From positions 1,550,001 through 1,614,000 of the forward strand of contig NZ_JAHBRX010000001.1 in NCBI RefSeq assembly GCF_018398335.1: 64,000 bases of DNA. Direction: 5' to 3'. Positions 2,907 through 4,569 of the stretch are shown here, in pieces. The position numbers were made by a program, and so were the translations under genes. The stretch's first letter is position 1. Each line of letters opens with the position of its first letter. Under the pieces are notes generated by a model. That model searched no databases and was not told the origin of the DNA. It worked only from the letters and a program-made list of their open reading frames with translations. This DNA comes from Chelatococcus sp. HY11 (GTDB lineage: Bacteria > Pseudomonadota > Alphaproteobacteria > Rhizobiales > Beijerinckiaceae).

Positions 2907-3317
2907 GATGTCCCATGCTGCCTTCATTGTCTGAGGTGCGCAACTCATGCGCGACGGGACATTTATGAAGTCCACTCACCAGACGAGCGAATGCCCAAAT
3001 TCGAGAGACGCGGACTGCGTGGACAGTTACCGTTGCGCATAAGCACATGTGCTTTTCAGGCAACACACACGACAAACATGGGCAGATCGGGCATACTCGT
3101 AGCACACTATACCACTATCGAGCGATGTCAGCGTCACGCTGGCCGGAAATGGCGATTTCCTCTATCCATCTCATAAATAAATGTTTTTCGTCGGGATGAA
3201 CGTCATAAAGCGATGGCTGGCGCGGTGCTATCCAGATTTCAGTGTGTAGGTGCCATGCACTCAGGGCATAGATTGACGCTTGCAACCTTTGCGCCAGCGA
3301 AGTAATGTTGCGTTGCG

Positions 3318-3401
3318 ATATGGCGATGTCATGTCGCTGCCCTCCTTGGGCGTTTCCTCCCTAGACTTGGGCCGCGCATCAGCGCGGCCTTCTTTCTTTT
3401 T
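3318..3401 (+). ncRNA. Candidate anti-Shine-Dalgarno small RNA (alpha-r14 / cuckoo-like)
   Basis: Three consecutive hairpins are visible on the plus strand. Hairpin 1 is GCCC-TCCTT-GGGC at 3339-3351. Hairpin 2 is GTTT-CCTCCCT-AGAC at 3352-3366 (one G-U pair). Hairpin 3 is an 8-bp perfect GC-rich stem at 3370-3389 followed by a T-rich tract. Both upstream loops expose CCUCC-type sequence complementary to ribosome-binding sites, the hallmark of alphaproteobacterial alpha-r14 and cuckoo small RNAs, which repress mRNAs by pairing with Shine-Dalgarno sequences. The 5' end is a guess: a TTGCAA-17-TAATGT promoter-like pair occurs at 3280-3308. No credible protein gene occupies the region. The family assignment is by architecture, not by alignment. 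Confidence 0.55.
3370..3401 (+). terminator. Rho-independent terminator
   Basis: Perfect stem GGCCGCGC / GCGCGGCC with an ATCA loop (3370-3389), followed at once by TTCTTTCTTTTT. It ends the candidate small RNA; no protein gene runs into it from the left on the plus strand. Confidence 0.85.
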
Positions 3402-3481
3402 AGGGAGGGCAGCGACTATGTCCGCCGCCGGTCTACACCGCGCGGCTCCCTCTGACCCCGAAAAACCCTCAACAAGAGCAA

Positions 3482-3540
3482 GACCGCCCAACCAGGTTCG
3501 GGGGCGGTCGTGCTGTTTCCTCCTGCGACTTGGGCGCAGG
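3482..3540 (+). repeat. Partial second copy of the anti-SD hairpin element
   Basis: Bases 3515-3535 repeat 3352-3372 with 18 of 21 positions identical (GTTTCCTCC, three variable bases, GACTTGGGC). The copy is preceded by an 8-bp stem GACCGCCC / GGGCGGTC (3482-3489 and 3502-3509) and can form CCTGCG / CGCAGG (3522-3527 and 3535-3540), but it lacks a T tract. It may be a decayed or rearranged paralogue of the small RNA at 3318-3401. From 3541 to 3756 I see nothing supportable. Confidence 0.45.
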
Positions 3541-3756
3541 GCTATAGTTGCACACGAAACCGCACCGCATAGCAAGCGGAAATCCGCGCTTTCGTCCTAT
3601 TTTTTGCGGATCGCTCCAAGTCCATATTCAAAAGTGCGGCAGAGGTCGCGAAAGCTCGTGATTTTCTCGAAATCGGCGCCAAGAACGCGTTTCTGCACCG
3701 CAAAAATCGACGACGGTTACCTCGTGCTACCACCTGCGCCTCATGCTGCGCTAGCG

Positions 3757-4569
3757 TCAGGCGGTGATCAGATTTTGGCGTGCCGCGATAAGATCGCGCA
3801 ACGTCGTCAATGTGGAGGTATCCGCGATCCCGTCGACACGCGATGGCCGGAAATGGCGCTGGAACGCCGTCACGACCGCCTCTGTCTCAGTATCGTACAC
3901 ACCTGTTATCGAGATTCCATAACCGTAGAGGGCGAACATCGCCTGCACCGCCTCGATCGGCTGACCGCGATCGCCGGGACTGAAGAAGCGCCCGCCTGTG
4001 ACGTCGGCGGGGCGAACCCAATGCCCAACGCCAGCTGCATTGAGGCGCTCCCAGGGAAAGGACTCGCCCGGATCCAGCTTGCGGGCTGGGGCAACGTCGG
4101 AATGGGCGAGAACACGGTCCGCCCGTATGCCCCAGCGCGTGATGATGTCGCGTGAAAGAGCAATAACGGCGGCGATCTGCACGTCCGGATAGGCGGGCAT
4201 TCCGCCGGGATGGCCGGGATTGGCGATCTCGATACCGATCGATGCCGAATTGATATCCGTCTCACCCTGCCAAAACGAAATGCCGGCGTGCCAAGCCCGC
4301 CGCGCCTCCGGCACAAGTTGCAGGACATGCCCATTCTCGAACACGAAATAGTGGGCTGAGACCTCCGAGACCGGGCTGCATAGCCGGTTCAGAGCCTCTC
4401 CCGCCGACGGCATCCCGGTGTAATGCAGAATGAGCATGTCCGGCACGCGAAAGCCCGTGCCCTCGGGTGGGGCGCCATTGATGAGGCGCTCGCCATGATT
4501 GGGGGACGCGAAGACCTTCTCGGCAATGGGACTGTCCGGACGGGGCAGGCGGCTTGGCGGCTCTGTCAT
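3757..4569 (-). CDS. N-acetylmuramoyl-L-alanine amidase (AmpD-like) with C-terminal peptidoglycan-binding domain
   Basis: 270 residues from the ATG at 4569. The core is an amidase_2 (AmpD/PGRP) domain: zinc ligands in LILHYTG, HAGIS and a third histidine in VLAHSDVAPARKLDPG, with SAHYFV between. A peptidoglycan-binding type 1 helical domain follows (IEAVQAMFALYGYGI, VVTAFQRHFRPSRVDG). No signal peptide is evident, so a cytoplasmic AmpD role (cleaving anhydro-muropeptides in wall recycling and setting beta-lactamase induction) is likely; AmpD-type enzymes carrying this extra domain are common in alphaproteobacteria. Longer starts up to 4695 exist but add low-complexity sequence without a ribosome site. 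No operon partner is apparent. Confidence 0.9.
   Translation of the reverse strand: MTEPPSRLPRPDSPIAEKVFASPNHGERLINGAPPEGTGFRVPDMLILHYTGMPSAGEALNRLCSPVSEVSAHYFVFENGHVLQLVPEARRAWHAGISFWQGETDINSASIGIEIANPGHPGGMPAYPDVQIAAVIALSRDIITRWGIRADRVLAHSDVAPARKLDPGESFPWERLNAAGVGHWVRPADVTGGRFFSPGDRGQPIEAVQAMFALYGYGISITGVYDTETEAVVTAFQRHFRPSRVDGIADTSTLTTLRDLIAARQNLITA

Follow-up and report, generated by a model that had tools for sequence, protein, structure and literature searches.

An alpha-r8-family small RNA in Chelatococcus, with predicted uptake-gene targets and a genus-specific conserved stretch at its 3' side

The closest described relatives of the element analysed here are the small RNAs (sRNAs) of Rfam family RF00519, named alpha-r8 in the literature (PMC7143759, PMC12559287). 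In Caulobacter, the family's 10-mer is described as single-stranded and pairs with the leader of a target just 5' of the start codon, as demonstrated by compensatory point changes, and it also pairs with the sponge RNA CrfA (PMC12559287). According to the same source, linkage to an FGase gene is found in most species carrying the family. In Sinorhizobium meliloti, the mmgR promoter was efficiently shifted by PhaR in EMSA, with the binding site 13 nt from the start, and YGCRNYGCR is given as the core of the PhaR/AniA site (PMC12542648). Finally, RNase III processing has been described for a trans-acting sRNA whose antagonist is encoded in cis (PMC8687705). A search of open-licence papers found no literature on sRNAs in Chelatococcus, hence no expression data for the locus at 3315-3401, and none of the titles listed dealt with this locus or with a sponge next to an alpha-r8 gene.

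Family, structure and conservation of the RNA

The window, i.e. the whole 64-kb stretch of Chelatococcus DNA that was analysed (64,000 nucleotides), contains a single type of RNA scoring above its Rfam cut-off, RF00519 (suhB/MmgR). The match at 3332-3405 on the plus strand scored 73.8 bits, the cut-off being 41 (E 2.2e-13 for the window), and covered the full length of the model, 1-77. Together with a predicted 71-nt fold of -28.7 kcal/mol (z -4.0), this places the element well beyond chance. The general idea put forward in the earlier note, namely an sRNA that acts in trans and has an anti-Shine-Dalgarno segment as well as a terminator of its own, is well supported. The element is a member of a known and very common family, which was found above cut-off in 115 of 119 genomes of the bacterial family and in 78 of 101 genomes of the order. 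We consider it highly probable that it is an alpha-r8 trans-acting sRNA, present as a second genome copy, which would repress uptake genes at their ribosome binding sites and would be linked to PhaR and PHB. The features on which this reading draws are the following.

3279-3308, plus strand: predicted sRNA promoter, with -35-like CTTGCA (3279-3284), an 18-nt spacer and -10-like TAATGT (3303-3308), read from the layout shared by the family
3309-3317, no strand: PhaR/AniA-box core TGCGTTGCG (consensus YGCRNYGCR) where transcription is predicted to begin, kept in 4/4 genus orthologues
3315-3401, plus strand: alpha-r8/MmgR/SisA-type sRNA, paralogue A (copy A), predicted transcript, from the RF00519 match and, for its 5' extension, from leader folding and the family layout
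3315-3337, plus strand: 5' hairpin GCGATATGGC / GTCATGTCGC of 10 bp (3315-3324/3328-3337), outside the Rfam model, from leader energies over 65 loci
3339-3351, plus strand: middle hairpin GCCC-TCCTT-GGGC, stem invariant and loop variable
3353-3362, plus strand: single-stranded anti-Shine-Dalgarno targeting 10-mer TTTCCTCCCT (RNA form UUUCCUCCCU)
3369-3401, plus strand: Rho-independent terminator, a 9-bp stem (8 G-C) at 3369-3390 followed by the T-rich tail TCTTTCTTTT, from the fold and a terminator scan

Conservation was assessed over 65 loci drawn from the family and the order, namely those of L001-L070 whose core differed by at most six substitutions from a 30-nt string containing the 10-mer. 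The set is biased towards good members, since the loci are the best-scoring ones; L003 and L011-L014 were dropped, with TTTCCTCCCT kept in L012 and L014 and absent in L003, L011 and L013. The earlier note had described the RNA as two CCUCC loops followed by a terminator, and the letters on which it relied are present (GCCC-TCCTT-GGGC at 3339-3351, GTTT-CCTCCCT-AGAC at 3352-3366 and the GC stem at 3369-3390 with its T-rich tail). The second of the two segments holds up, as TTTCCTCCCT was identical in 65/65 loci, while the first loop varies (TCCTT in 49 loci, TTCTT in 10 and others in 6), with part of its CCCUCC belonging to the stem. When loops were compared with stems, as the note had proposed, the GCCC/GGGC stem was invariant in all 65 loci around its variable loop, but the GTTT/AGAC stem found no support: the changes there were one-sided (4/65 loci), and both the minimum-free-energy (MFE) fold and the Rfam consensus structure of RF00519 leave the CCTCCCT segment unpaired. 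In the MFE fold, TTT and CCTCCCT are single-stranded, whereas the G of GTTT pairs with U3338 and AGA pairs with the tail. The result is the arrangement characteristic of RF00519, with a single-stranded UUUCCUCCCU lying 3' of a weak hairpin. Terminator-like sites numbered two in 3000-3800, where 1.1 were expected.

The 5' hairpin was assessed by anchored stems and energies, because its length varies among loci. The mean leader fold over the 65 loci was -15.9 kcal/mol compared to -8.3 in dinucleotide shuffles, in which the lowest of 20 replicate means was -8.9, and the outer six pairs of the hairpin are realised by several Watson-Crick and wobble types. A contiguous-stem measure, weaker than the energy measure, gave at least 6 pairs in 50 of the loci against 21 expected. 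This hairpin lies outside the Rfam model and is supported across loci of both family and order, which should make it of use to specialists. Since it belongs to the RNA, and since the -10-like TAATGT and the -35-like CTTGCA lie where the family layout has them, the predicted start is probably near 3315 rather than at 3318, where the note had placed it. Its remark that the region would mislead gene callers was fair, as the RNA is crossed by two mechanically called ORFs, one of 104 aa on the minus strand (3261-3575) and one of 291 aa on the plus strand (3280-4155).

Promoter, genome copies and predicted targets

The block upstream of the sRNA is kept in 4/4 genus genomes, and a sigma-70 scan returned no consensus promoter at the sRNA. 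Across the 65 loci, a PhaR-box core occupied the start position in 50 cases and the promoter spacer in 44, compared to approximately 1.5 expected for each, with the counting windows set after the motif had been seen; 7 loci carried the core in neither position. Two promoter motifs shared among the loci, TTTTGTGC..YGC in the spacer (35/65 loci) and TTGCRRYGC at the start (32/65), were found at most twice and at most once, respectively, in 100 shuffled sets, and both contain YGCRNYGCR, the core of the S. meliloti PhaR/AniA site. At copy A the spacer core is absent and the start core alone is present. The extended PhaR motif with AT-rich arms, in the consensus as read from the paper, had no match anywhere in the window, where the core alone matches. 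The core at the start of copy A suggests that expression of the sRNA would follow the carbon store PHB.

The source genome holds two RF00519 matches above cut-off, copies A and B, and one weak match, and the other three genomes of the genus hold two or three above cut-off each. Copy A lies between genes for a LacI-type regulator and an amidase, of which the amidase is a neighbour in 4/4 genus genomes and the LacI-type regulator in 3/4. Copy B (L002/L080) lies between genes for FGase (N-formylglutamate amidohydrolase, PF05013) and an inositol-phosphatase/SuhB-type protein (PF00459), so that the FGase neighbour is found at copy B and is missing at copy A. The membership of copy A nevertheless stands, because extra paralogues lie elsewhere in Caulobacter too (PMC12559287).

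The motif of the copy B promoter spacer, TTTTGTGCRRYGC, was found at four places in the genome compared to one for the reversed pattern, and one of the four is copy B itself. Two others (G000:C2 1296084 and 1301263; L081, L082) lie at genes that by eye resemble nitrate assimilation, and the motif there may be a site of a shared nitrogen/carbon regulator. The idea that PHB or phasin genes share the promoter motif was discarded, as TTTTGTGCRRYGC was not found near any of the four phasin places of the genome. TTGCAGTGCRR was rarer than its reversed control (12 against 25).

Two further family matches were seen in C. asaccharovorans (G001). At L010, 1501-1581, a third copy above cut-off (56.4 bits) has a different 5' leader, does not contain GACTTGGG and lies upstream of a gene that by eye resembles the nucleotidyltransferase type. 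At L013, approximately 1540-1640, a weak RF00519 match falls inside a series of GCCAAGTCTTGGGCGGAAACAAGTCTTGGGC-like repeats, which look as though they arose by multiplication of the 3' part of the core.

Candidate targets were sought as start codons preceded by a ribosome site with which UUUCCUCCCU would pair. The pattern AGGGAGGAAA-N1-9-ATG occurred 13 times in the four Chelatococcus genomes and its reversed pattern 0 times, and GGGAGGAAA-N1-9-ATG occurred 62 times compared to 2. The 62 places correspond to 61 distinct ORFs, of which 9 under 60 aa were dropped, and 33 of the 52 ORFs of at least 60 aa encode solute-binding proteins by Pfam (SBP_bac_1 16, TctC 6, Peripla_BP_4 4, Peripla_BP_6 3, SBP_bac_5 2, NMT1 1 and SBP_bac_3 1, the families being taken as disjoint as judged from the sequences). 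Five solute-binding clusters recur among these ORFs in 3 or 4 genomes; acetyl-CoA synthetase recurs in 4/4 genomes and an aldehyde dehydrogenase, of the methylmalonate-semialdehyde type by reading, in 3. For the one-base control AGGAGGAAA (52 places, 51 loci, 17 under 60 aa dropped), 8/34 proteins were solute-binding, all in single-member clusters; 25 of its 39 families were among those listed, and the count of 8 stood when 10 of the 34 proteins were re-scanned singly. The difference between GGGAGGAAA and AGGAGGAAA was significant by member (Fisher p 2.7e-4) and by protein cluster (22/35 against 8/26, Fisher p 0.013). Both the target set and the control were chosen after the first AGGGAGGAAA matches had been seen, and leaving these matches out gave 25/41 against 8/34 (p 0.0011). 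An earlier control, AAGGAGGAAA, occurred at 7 places, too few for use.

The bias of the target sites towards solute-binding proteins is real. Since the AGGAGGAAA control is itself rich in solute-binding genes (8/34), part of it may stem from strong ribosome sites, which may simply be common before genes of this kind. The sRNA would likely act by repressing uptake genes at their ribosome sites. The region of approximately 3315-3401 would be transcribed as an sRNA, probably with the help of Hfq, and its invariant, unpaired UUUCCUCCCU would pair with GGGAGGAAA-type ribosome binding sites just 5' of start codons and block translation. The targets would chiefly be solute-binding proteins of ABC and tripartite carriers, along with acetyl-CoA synthetase and aldehyde dehydrogenase, and the PhaR-box core at the start would make sRNA expression track the PHB store. 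A regulon of solute-binding proteins and acetyl-CoA synthetase would fit a brake on uptake under carbon surplus. Phasin genes are the proposed targets of MmgR in Sinorhizobium. As direct targets of the 10-mer, phasin mRNAs were rejected here, as GGGAGGAAA did not precede the readable starts among 14 phasin-like loci, several of which have no resolved start.

The conserved stretch downstream of the sRNA

Conservation at the locus extends past the terminator. A block of approximately 3262-3615 is nearly identical in the four orthologues, with 23-30 of every 30 columns identical through most of 3404-3615 and 0-12 of 30 in windows outside the block. The features of this part are given below.

3404-3615, no strand: conserved non-coding stretch 3' of the sRNA, genus-specific, found in 4/119 family genomes, which are the four of the genus
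3333-3345, plus strand: left arm GTCGCTGCCCTCC of a perfect 13-nt inverted repeat, within the sRNA, from a repeat search and orthologue comparison
3404-3416, plus strand: right arm GGAGGGCAGCGAC, directly 3' of the terminator, complementary to the 5' part of the sRNA, in 4/4 genus orthologues
3515-3535, minus strand: segment GCCCAAGTC-GCA-GGAGGAAAC, candidate sponge or antisense RNA, complementary to the sRNA core at 9+9 of 21 positions
3561-3569, no strand: another PhaR-box core, at the distal end of the stretch, in 4/4 orthologues although its free positions differ

The longest complement of this kind in 33 other loci was 5-8 nt, compared to 13 nt here, and the longest in 300 shuffles was 9. 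A search for the sRNA followed by the mirror arm matched one record among named genomes, C. asaccharovorans DSM 6462, the window's own genome perhaps having been left out. The mirror arm (GGGAGGG) can also be read as a ribosome site followed by a suitably spaced ATG (AGGGAGGGCAGCGACTATG, from 3419 onward); a protein from this ATG is unlikely, because the tiny ORF, by reading, is frameshifted in the window relative to its sisters and ends early in three relatives. Elsewhere, an 18-nt direct repeat (94%) of CGMTGGCCGGAAATGGCG lies at 3137-3154 and 3841-3858, one unit intergenic and one in the amidase gene, and is probably due to chance.

A possible explanation for the inverted repeat is pairing between 3404-3416 and the sRNA inside a single read-through transcript, where the long duplex would hide both anti-Shine-Dalgarno segments and yield a processed or inactive long form. 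Consistent with this, the fold predicted for the 88-nt strand (-53.8 kcal/mol, z -7.2) has its 5' arm closed on 3404-3416, the T-tail of the terminator is interrupted (TTCTTTCTTTTT), and the energy of pairing between the 5' part of the sRNA and the plus strand of the stretch is -43.0 kcal/mol. The terminator, however, is strong, with 8 of its 9 pairs being G-C, the pairing energy stands out less than the perfect 13-nt match does (3/500 shuffles paired as strongly), and among the loci compared the long repeat is confined to Chelatococcus. Taken together, we regard read-through pairing as rather unlikely.

The stretch may encode a sponge or antisense RNA, possibly an off-switch for the sRNA. The segment at 3515-3535 is a direct repeat (D1) of the sRNA core over 21 nt (18/21), unchanged in 4/4 genus genomes, and its minus strand forms a predicted duplex of -34.1 kcal/mol with the core, which 0/500 shuffles equalled; this strand offers the G/A-rich stretch complementary to the alpha-r8 core that is expected of a CrfA-like sponge. 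Unremarkable pairing was obtained between the core and the plus strand (65/500 shuffles as strong) and between the 5' part and the minus strand (411/500). On the minus strand, the PhaR core at 3561-3569, a -10-like CTATAG at 3542-3547 and the D1 segment line up, while sequence inspection and scans near 3535 on this strand revealed no -35, no consensus promoter and no intrinsic terminator. Consensus folding of the stretch (-77.3 against -74.5) did not tell the strands apart. In its full form, the proposal would be a Chelatococcus system of an alpha-r8 sRNA and a head-on antagonist, in which a short minus-strand RNA from approximately 3535, sharing the PhaR control of the sRNA, would titrate both sRNA copies via GUUUCCUCC and GACUUGGGC (9+9 bp), and the 13-nt arm would sequester the 5' part in read-through RNA. 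This is a speculative reading that we consider unlikely; if true, it would represent a compact PHB-sensing module of sRNA and sponge with an origin independent of the Caulobacter CrfA.

The same repeats could also be debris of a tandem duplication beside a decaying or silent copy A. Tandem copies of the family do occur in other genomes (e.g. G021, G030 and G081 in the family, G162 and G194 in the order), D1 is a direct repeat at a distance of 163 nt, and copy A carries fewer PhaR cores than copy B. Against this, the block of approximately 3262-3615 is kept in 4/4 genomes while its flanks drift, the 5' hairpin, 10-mer, terminator and start core of copy A are all intact, and no change is seen in D1 or the 13-nt repeat across 4/4 genomes, the repeat search having found both in L076 and L078 as well. 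Decay is therefore improbable.

The earlier note favoured another identity, an RNA of alpha-r14 (NfeR1) or cuckoo type in which several loops carry CCUCCUCCC. Such an RNA shares the anti-Shine-Dalgarno segment and the terminator with the element, but this identity can be set aside almost entirely, and is ruled out by the full covariance scan as long as the Rfam models hold. When all 4227 Rfam families were scanned on 3200-3700 at E up to 10, the ten matches did not include alpha-r14 (the model we take to be RF02345), and RF00519, at 73.8 bits, was far ahead of SorY (30.5 bits, cut-off 111) and SorX (23.4, cut-off 46.6), weak sub-threshold matches to other alphaproteobacterial sRNAs that came next. 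Moreover, alpha-r14 RNAs bear the motif in all three loops (PMC7143759), whereas the loops of the predicted RNA are GAT, TCCTT and ATCA, CCUCCUCCC is absent from it, and its one invariant anti-Shine-Dalgarno segment, with CCTCCCT, is single-stranded. The reading as an alpha-r8 sRNA is the one retained below.

Comparison with described systems

NfeR1/alpha-r14 resembles the present RNA as an alphaproteobacterial anti-Shine-Dalgarno sRNA by which transport genes are repressed (PMC7143759), and differs in its Rfam family, in the motif being carried by three loops and in the lack of any match at 3200-3700. The CrfA sponge of Caulobacter shares with the minus strand of 3515-3535 a G/A-rich stretch facing the alpha-r8 core; CrfA, however, is a proven and separately encoded sRNA, while the candidate described here faces the sRNA gene and is known from sequence alone. 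A precedent for a joint locus of sRNA and antagonist is provided by PMC8687705. Such a pair occurs in Campylobacter, a member of another phylum, and is not known to be related to alpha-r8.

The nearest parallels are found within the alpha-r8 family itself. SisA-D of Caulobacter crescentus share the 10-mer, the presence of multiple paralogues and a predicted role as repressors that act on uptake genes at the ribosome site (PMC12559287). The predicted targets in Chelatococcus are solute-binding proteins of ABC and tripartite systems, whereas TonB receptors stand out in that study, and PhaR cores are present at both copies here, while no upstream motif common to sisA-D was found there (PMC12559287). 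MmgR of S. meliloti belongs to the same covariance-model family (alpha-r8, RF00519) and has the core 10-mer and the terminator in common with copy A; in contrast, the 5' hairpin is extra to the Rfam model, and copy A lies between the LacI-type regulator and amidase genes rather than beside FGase/suhB. A PhaR/AniA box lies in the mmgR promoter, likewise here (PMC7143759, PMC12542648). The occurrence of PhaR cores at two fixed promoter places in most loci suggests that PHB sensing is an old, order-wide input to these RNAs rather than a feature of Sinorhizobium.
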